Positions 789 through 60,390 of a stretch of 64,000 nucleotides of DNA are shown piece after piece. The stretch comes from Tissierellia bacterium (GTDB lineage: Bacteria; Bacillota; Clostridia; Tissierellales; Peptoniphilaceae). Where the stretch lies: the NCBI GenBank assembly GCA_030529425.1, contig JAUMWX010000001.1:310001-374000 (forward strand), given 5' to 3'. The notes beneath the pieces were generated by a model, which searched no databases, was not told the origin of the DNA, and worked only from the letters and a program-made list of their open reading frames with translations. How positions within the stretch are numbered: the stretch's first letter is position 1; the number at the start of each line of letters is the position of its first letter. The translations under genes and the position numbers were made by a program.

Positions 789-2069
789 ATGAGAATTTGG
801 ATAAAGGACATTATTGTAATTACGGTAAATGAAGATTTCGATATATTGGAAAATTCAAATGTATATATTGAGGGAAATAGAATTTATCATGTAGGCGGTA
901 GATTGGACGATTTCAATCCTGAAAAAATTATTGACGGAAAAGGAAAAGTGTGCATGCCCGGACTGATAAATGCGCACACTCATATAGGGATGAGCGTTTT
1001 TAGAAATTACGGAAATGATGTAAGTTTGGAAACATGGTTGAGAGAATTTATCTGGCCTATGGAGAAAAAATTGTCTTCAGAGGATATAAAAACATCCTCT
1101 GAATTGGCGATTGCGGAGATGATAGAAACGGGAACAACCACATTTGTGGACATGTATCTGAAGATGGATGAAGTTGCGGAATCTGTTGAAAAATACGGAC
1201 TTAGAGCCGTTTTAACAAAGGGGTTGATTCATCCTGACCAAAACACCTTGGAAAAAGAGACGGATTTTTATAAAAGATGGCATAACTCAGCCGATGGAAA
1301 AATTAAAGTAATGATTGCGCCTCATGCCGTTTATACGAATAGCAGGGAAGAGCTCATCCGGGAAAGCGAATTAGCTAAAAATTTAGATGTAGGAATTCAC
1401 ATACATTTAAATGAGTCTCAAATGGAGGTTGAAAATTCGATTCGGGAAAACGGTTTTTCTCCTCTTGAGTATGCTCACAGTTTGGGAATGATTGATGAGA
1501 AAACTATTGCCGCTCACTGTGTTTGGCTGAGCGAAAAAGAAATTGAAATAGCTAAAACTACCGGGATGACCATGGTTCATAACCCGGCGTCCAATATGAA
1601 ATTGGCTTCAGGCTTTATGAGAGCACAAGAATTATTGGATATGGAGATAAATGTCGCTCTCGGAACGGACGGAGTTTCTTCCAATAATGTTTTAGATATG
1701 TTTGAAGAGATGAAATTGGCTTCCCTTATAGCCAAGGGAAGTACCTTAAATCCGAAAGTCCTAAATGCGAAAACCGTAATAGAAATGGCAACGATTAACG
1801 GAGCCAAGGCTATCGGAATGGAACGAGAGTTGGGCAGGATTAAGAAGGGATATTTGGCGGATTTAATAATTGTTGATTTGGATAATATCAGACATACTCC
1901 AAATACTGATGTGGTAGCATCGATGGTTTACTCAACCTGTGGAAATGATGTAGATACCACAATTGTCGACGGAAAAATATTATATGAGAATAAACGACAT
2001 TGTAAATTGGATGTGAAAAAGCTCATGAGTGAGGTATCTGAAATATTTGATAAATTGAGGAAATCATGA
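789..2069 (+). CDS. Amidohydrolase, MtaD-like (5-methylthioadenosine/SAH deaminase family)
   Basis: A 426-residue metal-dependent deaminase of the amidohydrolase superfamily, probably acting on 5'-methylthioadenosine or S-adenosylhomocysteine in the cytoplasm. Metal-ligand motifs are in the expected order: PGLINAHTHIGM, then HIHLNES, then AAHCVWLSEKEI, then LGTDGVSSNN. Length and the ETWL and GTTTFVDMY segments fit the MtaD/SsnA group. Its stop overlaps the start of the next gene by 4 bases (ATGA). Chlorohydrolase-type or guanine deaminase activity cannot be excluded from sequence alone. Confidence 0.82.
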   Translation: MRIWIKDIIVITVNEDFDILENSNVYIEGNRIYHVGGRLDDFNPEKIIDGKGKVCMPGLINAHTHIGMSVFRNYGNDVSLETWLREFIWPMEKKLSSEDIKTSSELAIAEMIETGTTTFVDMYLKMDEVAESVEKYGLRAVLTKGLIHPDQNTLEKETDFYKRWHNSADGKIKVMIAPHAVYTNSREELIRESELAKNLDVGIHIHLNESQMEVENSIRENGFSPLEYAHSLGMIDEKTIAAHCVWLSEKEIEIAKTTGMTMVHNPASNMKLASGFMRAQELLDMEINVALGTDGVSSNNVLDMFEEMKLASLIAKGSTLNPKVLNAKTVIEMATINGAKAIGMERELGRIKKGYLADLIIVDLDNIRHTPNTDVVASMVYSTCGNDVDTTIVDGKILYENKRHCKLDVKKLMSEVSEIFDKLRKS

Positions 2070-3289
2070 TAGGAATTGATATATTTGAAGTTAAACGGGT
2101 TGAAAAACTTCTGAAAAGAAAGAATTTTTTGAATAGATTTTTTTCTGAAAGTGAAATAAAATATATTTATTCAAAAAAATTTTCACACAATACCATTGCG
2201 GGTCTGATATCGGCAAAAGAAGCGGTATTAAAGGCTTTAGGAATAGGAATTTCCACTGAAATTTCTCTTAGAGATGTAGAAATATTGCACGACAAAGGAG
2301 TGCCTTTTGTAAATATAAAAAACAATTCAATGAGTAGATTGATGAAAAACAGAGATATTGGAAGCTTTGATCTCAGTATTTCTCATGACGGAGGATACGC
2401 AATTTCCGTATGTGAAACAAGGGAAGGCATATTTGTAACTGATGAGATGTTTAAGGAGTTTTTGCCCTTGAGAAGAATTGATTTTCATAAGGGTGATTAT
2501 GGAAAGGTTTTGATTATAGGAGGAAGTTTCGGGCTTACGGGTTCAATTTTAATGTCGTCTATGGCGGCACTAAGATGTGGAACCGGACTTGTATATGTTT
2601 TGCCTCCAAGCATTTTTGCGGACTCAGTACAAAGCAGGACTTATGAACAGATTGTTTTAAGTGTTGATGATGACGGAGAAAAGTTTTTTGGAAATTTTTC
2701 TGAAAAAAAATTATTAAATCATCTTAAAAACATGGATTCCGTGGCTATCGGGATGGGAATGGGAACCGGAGAAAATTCGTTTAGAATGTTGGAAACGGTA
2801 ATTGAAAACTTTGAAGGACCGATTGTAATTGATGCCGACGGGATAAATTGTCTTGTGGAAAAAATTGAAATTTTAAAGAACAGGAAGAACATATACTTAA
2901 CTCCTCATGAGATGGAGTTCTCGAGAATTTCGGGTTGTGACTTGGAGTATATCAAAAACAACAGAGAAGAAACTGCAAAGAATTTTGTAAAAAAATTCGG
3001 GGTTAATTTAGTATTAAAAGGAAATAAAACTATAGTTGTAAACAGAGATGAAATGTATGTGAACAACTCCGGAGATGATTCTTTGGCAACTGCGGGAGCC
3101 GGAGATGTATTGTCCGGGATGTTGGCATCATTCTTGGCTAAAAAACCAAACTTGAACTCCGCAAAATTGGCTGTATATATTCACGGTGTTTCAGGTGAAA
3201 TTTCAGGAAAAAAAATTGGAAAGGATTCTGTTATTGCAAGAGATATAATTGAAAATATATCCGAGGCGATAAAAATATTGAGAAAATGA
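2066..3289 (+). CDS. AcpS-NnrD fusion: holo-ACP synthase plus ADP-dependent NAD(P)H-hydrate dehydratase
   Basis: Two enzymes in one 407-residue chain. Residues 1-118 are AcpS, which transfers 4'-phosphopantetheine to acyl carrier protein: Mg-binding Asp in MIGIDIFEVKRV, FSESEIKY, and the SAKEAVLKALG signature with its Glu near residue 52. Residues about 140-407 are the ribokinase-like NnrD domain that repairs hydrated NAD(P)H: GKVLIIGGS, VIDADGIN, LTPHEMEFSR and the nucleotide/catalytic loop ATAGAGDVLSG near 341-351. No NnrE epimerase domain is present. It overlaps both neighbours by 4 bases. In many Firmicutes acpS and nnr genes are adjacent; here they are fused. Confidence 0.9.
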   Translation: MIGIDIFEVKRVEKLLKRKNFLNRFFSESEIKYIYSKKFSHNTIAGLISAKEAVLKALGIGISTEISLRDVEILHDKGVPFVNIKNNSMSRLMKNRDIGSFDLSISHDGGYAISVCETREGIFVTDEMFKEFLPLRRIDFHKGDYGKVLIIGGSFGLTGSILMSSMAALRCGTGLVYVLPPSIFADSVQSRTYEQIVLSVDDDGEKFFGNFSEKKLLNHLKNMDSVAIGMGMGTGENSFRMLETVIENFEGPIVIDADGINCLVEKIEILKNRKNIYLTPHEMEFSRISGCDLEYIKNNREETAKNFVKKFGVNLVLKGNKTIVVNRDEMYVNNSGDDSLATAGAGDVLSGMLASFLAKKPNLNSAKLAVYIHGVSGEISGKKIGKDSVIARDIIENISEAIKILRK

Positions 3290-9010: not shown

Positions 9011-9529
9011 ATGGATTTAAAATCTAAAATCAGAATTATCGAAAATTTTCCAAAAGAAGGGATTAGTTTTAAGGATATTACAACTCTATTGAAAGATAAG
9101 GATGCACTTGCAGAGATGATTGATCAGATGTGCGATAGAGTAAAAGACTTAGAATTTGATTATATAGCCGGAATTGAAGCGAGAGGATTTATTGTTGGAA
9201 CTCCAATGGCAATAAAACTGGGAAAGGGATTTATTCCTGTAAGAAAACCGGGAAAATTGCCAGGAAATATAATAAGAGAAAGCTATGATTTGGAATATGG
9301 ACAAAATGAAATTGAGATGGATGCTGATGTATTGAAAAAAGGAGACAGAGTACTATTGGTGGACGACTTATTAGCTACCGGAGGTACCGCAAAGGCGGCT
9401 GCAAATCTTATAACAAAGGCGGGAGCCGAGGTTGCCGGAGTGGGATTTTTGGTGGAATTAACAAGTTTGGAAGGAATGAAAATGTTGGATGAATTTGAAA
9501 CCTTCTCATTGGTACAATATGAAAAATAA
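9011..9529 (+). CDS. apt: Adenine phosphoribosyltransferase
   Basis: A 172-residue purine salvage enzyme (adenine + PRPP to AMP). Visible are the N-terminal FPKEGISFKDIT, GIEARGFI, the flexible-loop region KPGKLPG and the PRPP-binding VLLVDDLLATGGTAKA. SD GGAGGA precedes the ATG. Its TAA overlaps the next ATG (TAATG), so this salvage gene is the first gene of the aromatic-amino-acid operon. Confidence 0.96.
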   Translation: MDLKSKIRIIENFPKEGISFKDITTLLKDKDALAEMIDQMCDRVKDLEFDYIAGIEARGFIVGTPMAIKLGKGFIPVRKPGKLPGNIIRESYDLEYGQNEIEMDADVLKKGDRVLLVDDLLATGGTAKAAANLITKAGAEVAGVGFLVELTSLEGMKMLDEFETFSLVQYEK

Positions 9530-10287
9530 TGGGAAAAATAGAAGAAATTATTAATTCAAACCAAGCCATTTTAATTGCAGGTCCCTGTTCAATCGAGTCG
9601 AAAGAACACATAATGGATATTGCGCAAGAGGTCAAAAAATCCGGTGCTAACATACTTCGAGGGGGAGCATTTAAACCGAGAACATCTCCATATACATTTC
9701 AGGGGCTGGGTGCAAAAGCAGTTTCATATCTTGTTGAAGCAGGAAAAAATTTCGGGTTACCAACGGTCAGTGAAGTTGTAGATATAAGAGATATAGACCT
9801 GTTTAAGGATGTGGATATGATTCAAGTTGGTGCAAGAAATATGCAGAATTTTTCTCTTTTAAGAGAGCTTGGGAAACTTGATAAATATATCCTTCTTAAA
9901 AGAAATATGGGCTCTACCGTAGAAGAATTACTTTTGGCTGCCGAATATATAAGAAGCGAGGGCAATGAAAAGATAATTCTTTGTGAGAGAGGAATAAGAA
10001 CTTTTGAAAATTCTACGAGATATACATTGGATTTGAACATGATTCCTGTAATTCATCAAAATACAAAATACAAAGTTTTGGTGGATCCTTCACATGGAAC
10101 GGGAGACAGAAAATATGTAGAGTCCATGACCTATGCCGGAATGGCGGCAGGGGCGGACGGATTCATTATAGAAGTGGCAAGAATTCCTGAAAAGGCATTG
10201 ACGGATGCTCAACAGGCTTTGGAGACTGATAAACTTAAGAGGGTAGTAGAAAAATCAAAAAACATATATAAATTAATAAGGGAATAA
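9529..10287 (+). CDS. aroF: 3-deoxy-7-phosphoheptulonate synthase (core-only type I-beta)
   Basis: First step of the shikimate pathway: PEP + erythrose-4-phosphate to DAHP. A 252-residue TIM barrel with AGPCSIES, GGAFKPRTSPYTFQG, the metal Cys/His/Glu residues (ILCERGIRTFE, VDPSHGTGDR) and GADGFIIE. It lacks the N-terminal ferredoxin-like regulatory domain found in Thermotoga-type enzymes (about 340 residues) and carries no fused chorismate mutase, so on its own it is probably feedback-insensitive. It overlaps apt by 1 base. Confidence 0.94.
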   Translation: MGKIEEIINSNQAILIAGPCSIESKEHIMDIAQEVKKSGANILRGGAFKPRTSPYTFQGLGAKAVSYLVEAGKNFGLPTVSEVVDIRDIDLFKDVDMIQVGARNMQNFSLLRELGKLDKYILLKRNMGSTVEELLLAAEYIRSEGNEKIILCERGIRTFENSTRYTLDLNMIPVIHQNTKYKVLVDPSHGTGDRKYVESMTYAGMAAGADGFIIEVARIPEKALTDAQQALETDKLKRVVEKSKNIYKLIRE

Positions 10288-10289
10288 AA

Positions 10290-11405
10290 ATGAAAACTAG
10301 TATTTACAAAATCATAAATATAGATTTATCGAAGCAATATCAATTTATTTTAGGAAAAAATTTGATATTTGAAATTGCTAATCACATAAATCTGAAAGCC
10401 AATCAGAAGGTGTTAATTGTGTCGGATGAAGTAGTGTGGTCTATTTATGGAATGATGGTTGATGCTAGTTTTTCGAATTTTAAAAACAAGGTATTCACTC
10501 ATATATTAAAATCGGGAGAGGTCGAAAAAAATTATAAAAATCTTTTTGAAATTTTAAATAAATTGGGTGAAAACGGGTTTAGCAAAACGGATTTAATCTT
10601 AAGTATCGGTGGCGGAGTTATAGGAGATATATCAGGATTGGCAGCCGGACTTTATCAAAGAGGGATTTATCATGTAATGGTTGCGACCACTGTTCTAAGT
10701 GCGGTAGATTCAAGTGTAGGGGGAAAAACTGCAATAAATTTGGACTGTGGGAAAAATATTGTCGGAATGATTAATCAGCCGAACAGAGTAATATGTGATA
10801 TTTCGGTATTTAATACACTCAGCGACAGATTGTTTTATGAAGGAATAGTGGAGAGTATAAAGTATGCCATGATATATGATCCGTCAATGTTGGAGTTGTT
10901 CAATAATGATGTAAGAAATCCCAAATACATATACCAAATAATAGATCGTTCGGTTACTTCAAAATATAATATTGTAAAAATGGATGAATATGATGACGGG
11001 ATAAGAAAAATATTGAATTTTGGACATACATTGGGACATGCAATAGAGATTTTATCAGGATTTGATTTAAGGCATGGCGAAGCGGTCGGAATAGGTATGT
11101 TGATTATGACCAAATTATCGGAAAAGTTAGGCTATTTAAAAAACGATTTTGACAGAGGAAGCAAAATTAATAGATTACTAAACGGAAAAATGCCCGGGGA
11201 ATATTTAAAGACTTTGCTTAGAAAGTATGGTTTGCCGACCGAATTGTCCTATGGAATAGGGGATTTGATGCAATATATTTCGGTTGATAAGAAAATAAGA
11301 GAAGATTATATTTCTTTAATCTTACTGGAAAATTTAGGTAAGGCCCGAATAGAAAATATTGCAAAGGATGAATTGGAGGGTTTTTTAAATGAGATTAAGT
11401 ATTAA
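10290..11405 (+). CDS. aroB: 3-dehydroquinate synthase
   Basis: Second shikimate-pathway enzyme, NAD- and metal-dependent, 371 residues. The NAD-binding GGGVIGDISG, DSSVGGKTAIN, KNIVGMINQP and the metal histidines in NFGHTLGHAIE and RHGEAVGIGM are all present. It starts 2 bases after aroF and overlaps aroA by 17 bases. Confidence 0.95.
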   Translation: MKTSIYKIINIDLSKQYQFILGKNLIFEIANHINLKANQKVLIVSDEVVWSIYGMMVDASFSNFKNKVFTHILKSGEVEKNYKNLFEILNKLGENGFSKTDLILSIGGGVIGDISGLAAGLYQRGIYHVMVATTVLSAVDSSVGGKTAINLDCGKNIVGMINQPNRVICDISVFNTLSDRLFYEGIVESIKYAMIYDPSMLELFNNDVRNPKYIYQIIDRSVTSKYNIVKMDEYDDGIRKILNFGHTLGHAIEILSGFDLRHGEAVGIGMLIMTKLSEKLGYLKNDFDRGSKINRLLNGKMPGEYLKTLLRKYGLPTELSYGIGDLMQYISVDKKIREDYISLILLENLGKARIENIAKDELEGFLNEIKY

Positions 11406-12642
11406 AGGTGAGAGAATAATCGGGGAAATAGAGGCGATTTCTTCAAAATCCATTTTTCACAGAGCCCTTATATTGGCATCATTTTCGGAAAAAAAAATTA
11501 AGATCAGTTTTAACGCACTCTCCAAAGATATTTTAAAGACTTTGGAGATTCTTAATTCATTGGGGACGAAATTAACCGTTAAAAAACAATATGTAGAGAT
11601 ATGTAAAGGAAATCCGATTTGTGATGTCGATATCAATTTTGGAGAGTCCGGATCTTCCTTGAGATTTTTATTGCCGTATATATTTTTACATGATAGAAAA
11701 GCCGTTTTTTCAGCTGAGGGCAGATTATCGGAAAGACCGATAAAGGATTTGGTTGAGCAAATTTCTAAAAATGGAGTAAATCTAAGTTCAAAAAAGCTTC
11801 CGTTCACAGGGCGGGGAAGTTTTTATCAAGAAGATAAAGTATTCAGATTTCCGGGAAATATTTCAAGTCAATATATTTCCGGAATATTGATGATTGCACC
11901 ATTTATGAAAGGAAAAACCCGGATAACAATTGAGGGAAAGCTTGAATCCAAGCCATATGTTGATATGACAATCAAAATTATGAAGGATTTCGGATTGATT
12001 GTATCTGAAAATGATTTTGGATATGAAGTGTGTGGGGAGCAAAAAATAAAAGACATCCGTACATATACTATTGAGGGCGATTATTCCAATTCGGCTACAT
12101 TTATCGCATCGGGAATTATCGGCGGTGAAATAATTATAAGAAATTTAAATTATCCGAGTATTCAAGGCGACTCAAAAATAATAGAGGAGATACTGAAGTC
12201 GGGGGGAAATATCGAAATTTTCAAGGATTACGTAATAGTTAAGAAGAGCGATATAAAAGGATTTGATATAGATTGTTCCGACATTCCGGACTTGGTCCCG
12301 GTTTTAAGTGTTCTGGCACATTATTCAACAGAAAAATCCATCCTTAGAAATGTGAACAGATTGAGATTGAAAGAATCGGACAGAATAGAAAGTCTTTTAA
12401 ATTTGTTTGAAAGAGTGGGCGGAGACTGTAAATATATAAACGGAGATTTACATATAGAACCCGCTCGATTACATGGAAACAGGATAGAGTCTTTCAATGA
12501 CCACAGAATAGTAATGGCGGCTACCGTGGTTGCCGTTTTATCTCAAGAAGAGGTCGAAATAGACGGTTTTGAAGCAATTGAAAAATCATATCCCGATTAT
12601 GTTGAAAAGTTGAAAAAAATAGGAATGGAGGTGATCGATTGA
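11389..12642 (+). CDS. aroA: 3-phosphoshikimate 1-carboxyvinyltransferase (EPSP synthase)
   Basis: Sixth shikimate-pathway step, joining PEP to shikimate-3-phosphate. 417 residues with the N-terminal substrate motif SSKSIFHRALILA, signature NFGESGSSLRFLLPY and the second signature RLKESDRIES, ending with FNDHRIVMA. The ATG is preceded by GGAGGG inside the aroB 3' end. It overlaps the TTG of the following fusion gene. Confidence 0.95.
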   Translation: MRLSIKGERIIGEIEAISSKSIFHRALILASFSEKKIKISFNALSKDILKTLEILNSLGTKLTVKKQYVEICKGNPICDVDINFGESGSSLRFLLPYIFLHDRKAVFSAEGRLSERPIKDLVEQISKNGVNLSSKKLPFTGRGSFYQEDKVFRFPGNISSQYISGILMIAPFMKGKTRITIEGKLESKPYVDMTIKIMKDFGLIVSENDFGYEVCGEQKIKDIRTYTIEGDYSNSATFIASGIIGGEIIIRNLNYPSIQGDSKIIEEILKSGGNIEIFKDYVIVKKSDIKGFDIDCSDIPDLVPVLSVLAHYSTEKSILRNVNRLRLKESDRIESLLNLFERVGGDCKYINGDLHIEPARLHGNRIESFNDHRIVMAATVVAVLSQEEVEIDGFEAIEKSYPDYVEKLKKIGMEVID

Positions 12643-15197
12643 AGAGAGATATTAAATTTAGAGTTGAGGGATTTTCTCACGGAAAGGAAATAAGGTTCGA
12701 GTTGGAGAATATTCCTGCCGGAGAGAAAATAAATATGGAAAAATTGCAGGAATATATTGATTTCAGGGCGTCAAAAAATAAAAAATTCGCTACCAAAAGA
12801 CATGAAAATGATATTGTAAATATCGATTCCGGAATAATAAACGGCTATACAACCGGAGAGAAAATAGTCGGATATTTCACCAATTCAGATACCAATTCCA
12901 AAGACTATGGAATTTTTAACGAAATTCCAAGACCGTCACATATTGACTATGTCGCAAAAATTAAATACGGTGATGATTTTGATCTTTCGGGTTCATCGCT
13001 GTTTTCAGGTAGGCTGACTGTGGGATTTGTCGCTATGGGCGGCATAGTAAAACAGATATTGGAGAGAAAAAAAATCTATATTTCAAGTCATATAAAAAGA
13101 CTATTTAATGTAGAAGACAAAAGTTTTGACGAGGTAAATCTTACTTTAGGGGACTTTAGTGAAATCGACAAAAATTTTCCGGTAATAGATGAAGTGAAAA
13201 GAGAAAAAATGGAAGAATTACTGCATGAAATAAGTGTGCAAAATGATTCTGTGGGAGGAGTTGTTGAAGTTGCGGTATTGGGAGAAATAAAGGGCTTTGG
13301 AGGTCCATATGCGGAAAGGTTGGAGTCTAAGATTTCGAAAAATATTTTTTCGATTCCAGGAATAAGAGCCTTGGAATTCGGAAACGGAATAGATGCAAGT
13401 TCAAAGAAAGGCTCGGAGAATAATGACTTATTTGTTGAAAGAAATGGGGAAATATCGACTTCCACCAATAATAGCGGAGGAATAAACGGAGGAATAGCTA
13501 ACGGCATGCCCATAATAATAAGGGCATTTGTGAAGCCGACAGCATCAATAAAAAAGGTTCAAAGAACTTTGAATATAAAAACTAATGAATTTGAAGATTT
13601 GGTAATTGAGGGAAGGCATGATCCGGCATTTATTGTGAGAATAAGCACCGTAATAGAATCTATGCTGGCTTTATCACTTATCAGGGAATTAGATTTTGAA
13701 GAAAAAAGCAATAGAGAAAAAATTGATGAAATAGACAATCAAATAAGAAATCTTATGAGAGAAAGATTTGAGATAACGGATGAGATAGGAAGGCTTAAGG
13801 CATTAAACAGACTGGAGATTTTAGACAGGGAAAGAGAAAAAACAATAATTGAAAGATTGTCTGATGACGGTAATGATACATGGATTCCAAATATTTATAA
13901 TACGATTTTTTTGATAAGCAGAAATCGTCAAAATTTGATAAAAAAAAGGTACAGTGCAAGTTACGGCTTGATTGGAGAAAAGTTGAAGCATAGTTATTCT
14001 CCCGAAATTCATAAAGAATTGGGCGGGTATTTTTACTCATTATTCGAATTAAAAGAAAATGAGTTGGAAAAATTTTTAAGCTATAACTATAAGGGATTAA
14101 ATGTCACAATCCCTTATAAGGAAAAAGTAATTAAATATTTGGACGGACTGTCCGATCAGGCAAAGGAAATAGGAGCTGTAAATACGATACAATTTGTGAA
14201 GGGGAAAAAATACGGATTTAATACGGATTACTATGGATTTTTGAATATTTTAAAAAGAAAAAAAATTGAAATAGAAGGCAAAAAGGTTTTGATATTGGGA
14301 ACCGGAGCAAGCAGTAAGACCGTAGAATTCGTAATAAAAAAATTAAAAGCTCAAAGTATTGATTTTGTATCAAGAAGTGGAGATTTAAATTATTTAAATG
14401 TATATGATAAGGGAGATATTCAGGTAATTGTAAACACAACTCCTGTGGGAATGTATCCGAATAACGGAGTCAGTCTTTTGGATCTGGACAGGTTTCCATA
14501 TTTGGAAAGCGTGGTGGATTTGGTTTACAATCCTCACTACTCAAAATTGATTTTAGATGCAATGAAAAAAGGAATAAAACATTCCACGGGATTACCGATG
14601 CTTGTTTACCAGGCAAAAAAAAGTATAGAAATATTTAACGGAAAGAAGATTCAATTTGAACTTGCCGAAAAACTAATAGACAAATTGATTAGATCTAAAG
14701 TTAATATAGTGTTGGTCGGAATGCCGGGTTCGGGAAAGACGACCATAGGGAGAAGACTGTCATATAGATTGGGTAAAAAACACATAGATTTGGACATCCA
14801 TTTCAAGAAAACATACAATATTTTACCTTCAGAGGCACTTAAACTTTATGGGGAAAAGCGTTTTAGGGATATGGAAGAAAAAGTTGCCGAAGCTGTCGGT
14901 AAAATGACGAATTTGGTAATATCCACCGGCGGAGGAGTGGTTACAAGAAAGAATAATTATTACAGTTTGAAACAAAATTCAATTATATTCAATATTGAAA
15001 GAAAGGTTGAAAATTTATCAACGAGAAACAGACCTCTTTCTCAAGGAGGCATAGAACACCTGTTTAAGTTGAAAGAAAGCAGAGAAGAACTGTATAAATT
15101 TTTTGCCGATTATGAGGTTATAAACGACGATGTGTTTGAATATGCGGTGAAGAAAATTTCAGAGATTTATAAAAATATCAGGTTTAATGAATTATAA
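12639..15197 (+). CDS. Four-domain aromatic enzyme: chorismate synthase-chorismate mutase-shikimate dehydrogenase-shikimate kinase
   Basis: A single 852-residue chain without an internal stop. Residues 1-350: chorismate synthase (GFSHG, SGRLTVGFVAMGG, RHDPAFIVRIST). Residues 356-435: AroQ-type chorismate mutase with its Arg/Lys/Glu set (R359, R376, K387, DRERE at 396-400, Q431). Residues 438-682: shikimate dehydrogenase (HSYSPEIH, NVTIPYKEK, NTDYYGF, GTGASSK, NTTPVGMYP). Residues 686-852: shikimate kinase (Walker A GMPGSGKT 694-701, DLD, FRDMEE, STGGGV, NRPL). All catalytic motifs look intact. The TTG start is supported by GGAGGTGATC 7 bases upstream, overlapping the aroA stop. It covers shikimate formation, phosphorylation, chorismate and prephenate steps; 3-dehydroquinate dehydratase is missing from the operon. 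Confidence 0.95.
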   Translation: MKRDIKFRVEGFSHGKEIRFELENIPAGEKINMEKLQEYIDFRASKNKKFATKRHENDIVNIDSGIINGYTTGEKIVGYFTNSDTNSKDYGIFNEIPRPSHIDYVAKIKYGDDFDLSGSSLFSGRLTVGFVAMGGIVKQILERKKIYISSHIKRLFNVEDKSFDEVNLTLGDFSEIDKNFPVIDEVKREKMEELLHEISVQNDSVGGVVEVAVLGEIKGFGGPYAERLESKISKNIFSIPGIRALEFGNGIDASSKKGSENNDLFVERNGEISTSTNNSGGINGGIANGMPIIIRAFVKPTASIKKVQRTLNIKTNEFEDLVIEGRHDPAFIVRISTVIESMLALSLIRELDFEEKSNREKIDEIDNQIRNLMRERFEITDEIGRLKALNRLEILDREREKTIIERLSDDGNDTWIPNIYNTIFLISRNRQNLIKKRYSASYGLIGEKLKHSYSPEIHKELGGYFYSLFELKENELEKFLSYNYKGLNVTIPYKEKVIKYLDGLSDQAKEIGAVNTIQFVKGKKYGFNTDYYGFLNILKRKKIEIEGKKVLILGTGASSKTVEFVIKKLKAQSIDFVSRSGDLNYLNVYDKGDIQVIVNTTPVGMYPNNGVSLLDLDRFPYLESVVDLVYNPHYSKLILDAMKKGIKHSTGLPMLVYQAKKSIEIFNGKKIQFELAEKLIDKLIRSKVNIVLVGMPGSGKTTIGRRLSYRLGKKHIDLDIHFKKTYNILPSEALKLYGEKRFRDMEEKVAEAVGKMTNLVISTGGGVVTRKNNYYSLKQNSIIFNIERKVENLSTRNRPLSQGGIEHLFKLKESREELYKFFADYEVINDDVFEYAVKKISEIYKNIRFNEL

Positions 15198-47509: not shown

Positions 47510-47552
47510 TTTTGACATTATCGCAGAAAGTAATTAACATATTTAATATTAC

Positions 47553-47640
47553 AGGGTAGGTCATTTGCGTTAAGTGATTGAAGATGGAACGTTGCTTCAA
47601 TACGAAAAGTATTTGCGATGAATGACTGCGTTCACTGCTT
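47553..47640 (+). ncRNA. THF (tetrahydrofolate) riboswitch
   Basis: GGGTAGGTCATTTGCGTTAAGTG near the start matches the THF-I pattern. GTCATT (47560-47565) pairs with AATGAC (47621-47626). ATTGAAG (47577-47583) pairs with CTTCAAT (47595-47601), with GAACG in its loop (47587-47591) able to form the family pseudoknot with CGTTC (47629-47633). Downstream, AATCCTC (47644-47650) is complementary to GAGGATT (47671-47677), which contains the folT SD. Translational control by folate is therefore likely. Confidence 0.85.
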
Positions 47641-47679
47641 AAGAATCCTCTTAAGTAGATTAAAAAAAAGGAGGATTAT

Positions 47680-48588
47680 ATGAAAAATTATGATTTTAAA
47701 CCAAGGGATATTTTAATTGTTCTTATACTGTCTGTAATCGGTATACTTTCAATTAGGTACAATGCGGTTCCTAAAATTTATTACGGATATTTGTTTTCGC
47801 TGTTCATAATATTTTTGATAGGGACATATACAAACAAATGGATTGGAGGAGTGTCGGGACTTATTATCGTGTCTTTGGGACTTTATTCCAGGGTATTATT
47901 TCCTGTAATGGAAAAATTGAAAGGAAAAAAGCTTGAGAGTTTCATGGTAAATTTCAAAGAATACGAGTATTTTATTTCCAAGTATTTTGTTTTAATGATT
48001 TTGCTTGGCGTATTTTTAGGAATTGTCGGTGGAACGGTAGGAAATATTTTTAGAAAAGACAGATTTGTCGGAAAGATATTCACGGTAAAGGGAATAACAT
48101 ATATGTCAATAATGATAGCCATAGGTGTTATGATTAACAGTTTAAGAATCGGAGAACTGAGTTTCGGAGGATTCCCTATAATTTTGTCAGGATACCTTTT
48201 CGGACCTATATCGGGATTTGTGGTTGGTGCAATAACCGATGTGGTTGCATTTATGGTTAGACCGTCCGCATTCAGTTTCAATATTTTATTCGTGCTGACA
48301 TCGGGATTGACAGGGCTTATTCCGGTATTGATTACAAGTGTTTTGGGGGACAAATATCCTAAATATAGCTTTATTAAGATTTTAATAGGTATATTTGTAG
48401 GACAAATGTTGACATCGGTTATTATGGTTCCGATATTTCAAACTATATTTTACGGAAAGGTGTCATTCTATGTTTATGCCTCAAGAGCATTTTTGAAACA
48501 AATAGTTTCGATTCCGGTATACGCATTCCTTGTGACATCTTTAAGTGACAGATTTTCAAAAGTGATAAAATTCGATCAAATTTTTTAA
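47680..48588 (+). CDS. folT: Folate-family ECF transporter S component with N-terminal membrane extension
   Basis: 302 residues. The C-terminal part (from about residue 135) is a folate-type ECF substrate-binding membrane subunit: GGFPIILSGYLFGPISGFVVGAITDVVAFMVRP and ILFVLTSGLTGLIP. Typical FolT is about 170 residues; the extra 130 N-terminal residues contain three or four predicted helices, and I do not recognise them. The THF riboswitch upstream supports the folate assignment. The energy-coupling EcfAA'T genes are not in this window. Confidence 0.85.
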   Translation: MKNYDFKPRDILIVLILSVIGILSIRYNAVPKIYYGYLFSLFIIFLIGTYTNKWIGGVSGLIIVSLGLYSRVLFPVMEKLKGKKLESFMVNFKEYEYFISKYFVLMILLGVFLGIVGGTVGNIFRKDRFVGKIFTVKGITYMSIMIAIGVMINSLRIGELSFGGFPIILSGYLFGPISGFVVGAITDVVAFMVRPSAFSFNILFVLTSGLTGLIPVLITSVLGDKYPKYSFIKILIGIFVGQMLTSVIMVPIFQTIFYGKVSFYVYASRAFLKQIVSIPVYAFLVTSLSDRFSKVIKFDQIF

Positions 48589-59352: not shown

Positions 59353-60390
59353 ATGAAGGATATTTTAAAAAAAATGAAATTTAAAATGAATATTCAAATA
59401 GCAATTGCAGTTACAATTTCTATTTTTATAGCATATTCATTAAATTTAAAATACTATGCCTCAGCAGGAATTATTACATTACTTACGGTGCAGAATACCA
59501 AGAGAGATACTTTAAAATTTGCTATAAGGAGAATGTTTACATACATTATTACGCTATTATTATGTGTATTTTTGTATAATACTCTAGGTTATTCATTTTA
59601 TACTTTGGGTATATTCGTTCTGATAATCGGGTTGATCAGTTCATTTTACGGAATGGGATATGTACTGTCGGTAAACGTAGTTTTTGCAACCCATTTTTTG
59701 GATTCGCGCTCCATGGGTTTTGACTTGTTAATGAATGAGACCTATTTATTTTTAATAGGAGTTCTGATGGGTTTGATTATAAATCTTGTCACTCCGATGT
59801 TGTTTTTTGATTTTAGAAATGAAATCAGAGGAGTTGATGATGTCGTAAAAAATCTTCTTAGAGAAGTAAGCGGAAGATTGAGAGGCATATATTATATAGA
59901 AGATGTACAGACTACCAAAGAGATGAGTGATATATATATAAGCAATCAATTTAAAGAAATTAAGAAATATATATGGGATACTGAAAGTAAGCTCTTGGAA
60001 AATGCAAATAATATGATTTTTAAGGAAGAAAAATATTATCTGGACTATTTTATTATGAGAACTGCTCAAATAAATATAATTGAGGATATATTTGAAAGTT
60101 CGAAAAAATTGTATAAAACGATGAAACAAGCTCAACTTATTGCAGATTTTATGGATAACATTATTCTGCAATATCACGAGACAAATACGGTAGAGTATTT
60201 GAGTCTGAAAGCTGAAGAAATTCTTGAAATATACAGAAAACAACCTCTTCCGGTAACCAGAGAGGAATTTGAACACAGAGCCATGCTTTACTCAATAATG
60301 CACGATTTAATATTATTGATAAAAGAGAAGCGAAATTTTGTTATGGAACTTACCGAAGAAACCAGAAATAAATATTGGTCAAAAGAATAG
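59353..60390 (+). CDS. Aromatic acid exporter family protein (FUSC/DUF939 type)
   Basis: 345 residues. The N-terminal half has about five membrane helices with ASAGIITLLTVQNTKRDTLKFAIRR, typical of ArAE_1/DUF939. The C-terminal half is a cytoplasmic helical domain ending in a Lys/Glu-rich stretch. These proteins are thought to export aromatic acids; transport is not shown for most. It forms an operon with the zinc-ribbon gene. Confidence 0.85.
   Translation: MKDILKKMKFKMNIQIAIAVTISIFIAYSLNLKYYASAGIITLLTVQNTKRDTLKFAIRRMFTYIITLLLCVFLYNTLGYSFYTLGIFVLIIGLISSFYGMGYVLSVNVVFATHFLDSRSMGFDLLMNETYLFLIGVLMGLIINLVTPMLFFDFRNEIRGVDDVVKNLLREVSGRLRGIYYIEDVQTTKEMSDIYISNQFKEIKKYIWDTESKLLENANNMIFKEEKYYLDYFIMRTAQINIIEDIFESSKKLYKTMKQAQLIADFMDNIILQYHETNTVEYLSLKAEEILEIYRKQPLPVTREEFEHRAMLYSIMHDLILLIKEKRNFVMELTEETRNKYWSKE

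Follow-up and report, generated by a model that had tools for sequence, protein, structure and literature searches.

The window analysed here, a 64,000-nucleotide stretch from a Tissierellia bacterium of the family Peptoniphilaceae (GenBank assembly GCA_030529425.1, contig JAUMWX010000001.1, forward-strand positions 310,001 to 374,000), belongs to the small, 1.57-Mb genome (G000; 98.9% complete) of a Gram-positive organism. On its forward strand, positions 12639-15197 hold an open reading frame of 852 codons without interruption, and no frame comparable to it was found on the opposite strand of this region. The open reading frame, Pfam searches and alignment with a second genome (G059) indicated that the gene, which is single-copy in G000, encodes a putative tetrafunctional polypeptide of 852 amino acids, in which chorismate synthase (AroC), chorismate mutase (CM), shikimate dehydrogenase (AroE) and shikimate kinase (AroK) follow one another. 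Reading of the sequence placed a strong Shine-Dalgarno element, GGAGGTGAT, and the TTG start codon of the fusion at 12626-12641 of the same strand, where the start shares 4 nucleotides with the stop of aroA (TTGA). Programmed readthrough or an alternative genetic code is needless for this gene, since the frame is already open.

Domain analysis of the translation revealed four units, all encoded on the forward strand and separated by segments of only about 7-9 residues. Chorismate synthase occupies residues 1-350 (12639-13688), with Chorismate_synt (PF01264) matching residues 6-349 at 312.6 bits against a curated cut-off of 27, together with a match to PDB 1um0. It is followed by an AroQ-type CM at residues 356-431 (13704-13931), recognised by its active-site residues and by CM_2 (PF01817; residues 358-431, 54.3 bits, cut-off 27). 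Shikimate dehydrogenase extends over residues 441-680 (13959-14678), where Shikimate_dh_N (PF08501) matched residues 444-517 at 68.8 bits (cut-off 27) and PDB 5dzs and 3fbt were the structural counterparts, while an SDH_C match at residues 651-678 (19.8 bits) stayed below its curated cut-off. The C-terminal shikimate kinase covers residues 688-845 (14700-15173) and was identified by SKI (PF01202; residues 696-840, 93.2 bits, cut-off 22.1) and by PDB 1kag and other structures. Among the NCBIfam models, TIGR00033 (aroC) was passed with 278.1 against 212.2.

The residues of the four active sites were checked by alignment with solved structures and 33 relatives, and every catalytic residue checked was kept in the fusion. 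In the AroC domain, H14, R43, R54, H101, S123, R125, D328 and others were invariant in 18 alignment rows. The CM domain contains all eight active-site residues of the Escherichia coli enzyme (R359, R376, K387, D396, R399, E400, S427 and Q431, corresponding to R11, R28, K39, D48, R51, E52, S84 and Q88), the AroE domain K494, N515, D530 and Q658 plus the GTGASS glycine loop for NADP binding, and the AroK domain a Walker A motif (GSGKTT), D717 and D719 of the DxD motif, F742, R743 and E746, the glycines 764-766 (GGG), R798-P799 of the lid (RPL) and R815 (R..LY). The full-length chain was modelled with AlphaFold2 from 34 sequences, with a mean predicted local distance difference test (pLDDT) of 87.8 and a predicted template modelling score (pTM) of 0.65; the best Foldseek matches of the model in the PDB were the chorismate synthase 1um0 (template modelling score 0.80 by target), the shikimate dehydrogenase 5dzs (0.85) and 3fbt. 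A pTM of 0.65 gives nothing firm on how the modelled domains are placed relative to one another. Two results weigh against so plain an assignment: the aroE equivalog model TIGR00507 missed its cut-off (155.1 against 200.2), and no NCBIfam shikimate-kinase model passes on the fusion, which suggests that the AroE and AroK domains are somewhat divergent. Judged by its sequence, the fusion is a member of the AroC, AroQ-type CM, AroE and AroK families. An earlier sequence-only reading of this DNA had described four complete domains with intact motifs in this order, which domain search and residue alignment bear out, and had named loss of catalytic residues as a refutation; none was lost among those checked. 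Its further proposal that the pathway is extended past chorismate to prephenate agrees with the complete active site of the CM domain.

The same four-domain chain, in the same order, was found in G059, a genome of another genus and an independent assembly, where it is 858 amino acids long, free of stops and 50% identical to the fusion of the window. Identity by domain was 51% for AroC, 32% for CM, 51% for AroE and 55% for AroK, and all eight active-site residues of CM are kept in both genomes despite the low identity of this domain. The alignment runs through all three junctions without a frame shift, the fusion gene overlaps aroA by 4 nucleotides in both genomes, and phylogenetic analysis placed the two AroC domains as sisters (support 100/100) and the two AroE-AroK parts in one clade (100/99) together with genus g8. 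Since it recurs in another genus at 50% identity, with sister AroC domains and the same overlap with aroA, the fusion is no assembly artefact. That the join arose from an assembly or sequencing error, or from a stop codon lost in one strain whose cells make separate enzymes, is hardly credible: neighbouring genes of relatives overlap by a few nucleotides, so that one indel would join them, yet the layout is uninterrupted in G059 and a single error would not give three joins aligned in frame. The sequence-only reading had named a sequencing error as a further refutation, and G059 contradicts it. On these sequence comparisons, the fused enzyme and the origin proposed for it below are almost certainly real.

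The complete layout is rare, with the window's genome and G059 the only cases among the 130 genomes of the family and no third case found among the 249 genomes, from 92 genera, searched in the order; within the order, the phylogenetic spread that the sequence-only reading had proposed to examine is narrow for all four domains, while partial fusions are common in the family. Long open frames of 619-934 amino acids around AroC or AroE-AroK in 12 genomes (G079, G080, G093, G105, G107, G127, G132, G146, G148, G181, G187 and G247) were considered as further four-domain fusions and rejected; in the stretches read, they are neighbouring genes split by stops, or open extensions. Full-length matches in G119 and G248 contain 12 and 17 stops, respectively, and represent separate genes.

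Comparison with relatives revealed the intermediate arrangements. In another family of the order (L133), aroC, CM, aroE and aroK are separate genes in this very order, and three further loci from other families (L134, L136 and L137) have separate aroC-CM-aroE genes, with aroK next where read and aroB/aroA preceding aroC (order aroB/aroA-aroC-CM-aroE). Within the family of the window, at least 88 of the 130 genomes have some match to the fusion, many members are without aro genes altogether, and AroE and AroK are fused almost everywhere. Four genera (g3, g4, g18 and g36) encode CM-AroE-AroK proteins of 495-510 amino acids, co-linear with residues 356-847 of the fusion at 42-45% identity; they differ from the four-domain chain by a separate aroC gene, which usually overlaps its neighbour by 13-29 nucleotides and in g3 is located elsewhere. 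Neighbouring aro genes of relatives usually overlap by 4-29 nucleotides, and in G105 and G107 AroC and AroE-AroK share a frame and are divided by a lone TAA. Because the order of protein domains equals the ancestral order of genes, the fusion would have formed stepwise, in place and co-linearly; by this comparison of gene orders, it represents the last stage in the progressive joining of overlapping neighbours in a clostridial-type aro operon, in which aroE and aroK would have joined first, then CM, and then aroC.

Other unusual proteins of the pathway were observed in the same survey. G042 encodes another trifunctional fusion from this operon, AroE-AroK-AroD (type II), of 564 amino acids (L043:4309-6003). 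G113 and G116 have bifunctional CM-AroK proteins of 251-262 amino acids with no AroE between (L058:5544-6299 and L059:5497-6285), and just upstream of aroA an open reading frame of 239-241 amino acids that resembles a type I dehydroquinase by eye; that these two start from imported shikimate is not claimed, as AroE may lie elsewhere. In G103 (L055:6286-7812), AroC is broken after about 219 residues and runs into RnlA-type RNase LS toxin domains, so that aroC looks as if a toxin gene had either interrupted it or been joined to it. Genus g8 has CM-AroE-AroK chains (L063:4875-6371, L064:5089-6588 and L065:4747-6237) in which catalytic residues of CM and AroE are lost (e.g., D530 replaced by E, and K494 changed or the NADP loop lost); its shikimate kinase motifs are largely kept (GGG reads SGG), and this kinase may have another role.

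Multifunctional enzymes of this pathway are known from other systems. AROM of fungi and protists, which joins AroB, AroA, AroK, AroD and AroE in one chain, resembles the present protein in carrying several shikimate-pathway enzymes, AroK and AroE being common to both. Unlike AROM, the fusion is without AroB, AroA and AroD, adds AroC and CM, has another order, and comes from a bacterial operon whose intermediates are visible in relatives; judged by content and order, it is independent of AROM. The CM/shikimate dehydrogenase fusion of Clostridium acetobutylicum (PDB 3fbt) shares the CM-AroE order and homology in AroE; it has two domains instead of four, and its arrangement, CM directly followed by AroE, recurs at residues 356-680 and is extended here on both sides. 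AroE-AroK fusions, as described in Methanomicrobiales (PMC11237513) and present in most of the window's family, correspond to the C-terminal part of the chain, with both of its domains likewise in that order, and are without CM and AroC. The idea of an independent invention, raised by the sequence-only reading, thus holds as regards AROM; the fusion is not isolated, given the AroE-AroK and CM-AroE-AroK intermediates, the separate genes in the same order and the two-domain precedents. No description of a four-domain enzyme was found in the literature search, in line with what that reading had supposed; subscription papers were mostly outside its reach, which makes this weak evidence of absence.

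The fusion is the last gene of a single run on the forward strand. Its first gene encodes an apt-like phosphoribosyltransferase (9011-9529; Pfam Pribosyltran), the last base of which is the first base of aroF (9529-10287). AroF is a type I-beta 3-deoxy-D-arabino-heptulosonate 7-phosphate (DAHP) synthase of 252 amino acids consisting of the core only (Pfam DAHP_synth_1, NCBIfam PRK08673). It is followed by aroB, for 3-dehydroquinate synthase (10290-11405; Pfam DHQ_synthase and DHQS_C), and by aroA, for 5-enolpyruvylshikimate 3-phosphate (EPSP) synthase (11389-12642; Pfam EPSP_synthase, with TIGR01356 above its cut-off). AroA, which catalyses step 6, is encoded by its own gene upstream and lies outside the chain, and the term pentafunctional-style used in the sequence-only reading has to be replaced by tetrafunctional. 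Downstream of the fusion, a gap precedes the start of the rpmG-secE-nusG-rplK ribosomal region. A type I dehydroquinase is encoded elsewhere in the genome, fused to an Ogt-like domain, and its presence makes the route to chorismate complete. This pairing of AroD with an O6-methylguanine-DNA methyltransferase (Ogt) occurs in both four-domain genomes (L077:1465-2592 on contig C24 of G000, 375 amino acids; L076:1489-2652 of G059, 387 amino acids), and is an odd one, of a pathway enzyme with DNA repair. Two further genes of the window are recorded here: a 407-amino-acid fusion of holo-acyl-carrier-protein synthase (ACPS) with NAD(P)H-hydrate dehydratase (Carb_kinase), which lacks the customary epimerase domain (2066-3289) and is the second unusual fusion of the window, and a putative aromatic acid exporter (ArAE_1; 59353-60390).

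Taken together, these assignments suggest that one chain would perform steps 4 (AroE), 5 (AroK) and 7 (AroC) of the pathway plus the conversion of chorismate to prephenate. Shikimate 3-phosphate would pass to AroA, to whose translation that of the chain would be coupled, EPSP would return to the AroC domain, and CM would turn the resulting chorismate into prephenate; being on one chain, the four activities would be made in equal number. All four sites are presumably active, and the chain presumably remains whole. Since AroC generally forms tetramers and AroQ-type CM dimers, an assembly around an AroC tetramer with paired CM domains is likely by analogy. No claim is made for substrate channelling, which would be a guess.

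The oddest point of this system, overlooked by the sequence-only reading, is that the usual consumers of chorismate and prephenate that were tested are all missing beside an intact CM. Prephenate dehydratase (PF00800), prephenate dehydrogenase (PF02153, a profile tested in five genomes) and chorismate-binding enzymes of the TrpE/PabB/MenF type (PF00425) were not found in G000 or G059, whereas 14 of 14 control genomes were positive for each. A match to PF02153 below the cut-off in G000 was identified as GpsA by position and sequence. As no enzyme of these three kinds was recognised, prephenate is most likely the final product of the pathway, one for which amino acid and folate synthesis offer no known use. 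The CM active site is whole in two genera at 32% identity, and thus prephenate, or ligand binding by CM, would be under selection though its usual users are missing. Folate import is suggested by a tetrahydrofolate riboswitch upstream of the gene for the S component of an energy-coupling factor (ECF) transporter (47550-48588 of the window). Weighing against a prephenate end point, the negatives cover these three families, with other folds (e.g., cyclohexadienyl dehydratase and MqnA) outside the search; moreover, in genera g26, g27, g2 and g6, which include some of the family genomes with neither prephenate dehydratase nor PF00425, aroC is present with no CM beside it in the stretches read, so that prephenate cannot be where the pathway ends in every relative.

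Prephenate might still feed aromatic amino acid synthesis if an enzyme of another fold, or a non-enzymatic reaction, converted it to phenylpyruvate or to arogenate products. Prephenate dehydrates spontaneously in acid, and the restriction of the tests to three Pfam families leaves room for such a route. Against it stand the joint absence of these families from both genomes with all controls positive, the ready detection of prephenate dehydratase in relatives that have it (above cut-off in 21 genomes of the family), and the lack of a T-box or any other Rfam element upstream of the aro operon. We consider this route rather doubtful, though worth keeping in view.

It is unlikely that CM was retained as an allosteric sensor acting on the stand-alone, core-only DAHP synthase and not as a supplier of prephenate. 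CM acts on DAHP synthase in Bacillus subtilis and Mycobacterium tuberculosis, and AroF is core-only (249-283 amino acids as read) in G000, G059, G043, G044, G114 and G119. CM is fused to AroE-AroK in five of these six genomes (the gene of G119 is broken up). In nearly all other relatives AroF has 324-369 amino acids with an N-terminal extension. However, CM sits on the AroC-AroE-AroK chain and not on AroF, G070 has a fused CM yet a full-length AroF, and a whole catalytic set would be needless for a pure sensor, though binding and catalytic residues overlap. The core-only genes lie at 9529-10287 of the window, at L035:10706-11455 and at L049, L050, L052 and L069, and loss of the regulatory extension goes together with the CM-AroE-AroK fusion, G070 being the exception.

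Still somewhat less probable is a decaying pathway, whose usual users were lost recently and whose fused enzyme is itself being lost. The sister genus g8, with a decayed CM and AroE beside an intact kinase and no AroC match in the search with the fusion, would fit such a course, as would the many family members without any aro genes. Two genera whose fusions are only 50% identical nevertheless keep all the catalytic residues, and neither prephenate dehydratase nor PF00425 was found in 27 of the 70 family genomes listed with an AroC match, which indicates that the state without these users is old and widespread. The best overall explanation, held with high confidence, would be a tetrafunctional enzyme formed by stepwise fusion in a pathway that most likely ends at prephenate.

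A use for prephenate outside amino acid synthesis is known from E. coli, in which the peptidase-U32 protein TrhP needs it to hydroxylate wobble uridine, and RlhA needs it for the corresponding reaction on rRNA; PepU32#1 and trmR are both found in Clostridia (PMC6599085). G000 and G059 have three U32 genes each. One of those in G000 encodes a protein of 411 amino acids with both U32 domains and an intact E, C, C motif, directly after a trmR-like methyltransferase gene (L121, 7931-9166 and 9163-9822 for the pair); the trmR-like and U32 gene pair is also present in G059. The likeness to the E. coli systems lies in this motif-bearing gene beside a trmR-like gene, and by analogy U32-dependent RNA hydroxylation would be the most plausible known consumer of prephenate; that prephenate is in fact used for RNA modification is possible, with the balance somewhat against it. 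Two results speak against this link: U32 genes occur in 126 of the 130 family genomes regardless of aro genes, compared with 88 that have any match to the fusion, and G009, without aro genes, keeps the trmR-U32 pair. These counts refute the idea that presence of U32 tracks aro or CM genes. The fuller proposal, in which prephenate is the end product and the aromatic pathway is kept for RNA modification alone (hydroxylation of wobble uridine and rRNA by U32 proteins), with aromatic amino acids and folate imported, is put forward tentatively.

The fusion adds a second, bacterial and independent route to a multifunctional enzyme of the aromatic pathway, and this enzyme includes chorismate synthase and chorismate mutase. 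As the intermediate stages survive in living relatives, the way it was assembled can be reconstructed and tested one domain at a time. The part most surprising to a specialist is the prephenate end point: if the pathway does end there, these bacteria would provide a natural system that separates the poorly understood role of prephenate in RNA hydroxylation from amino acid synthesis.

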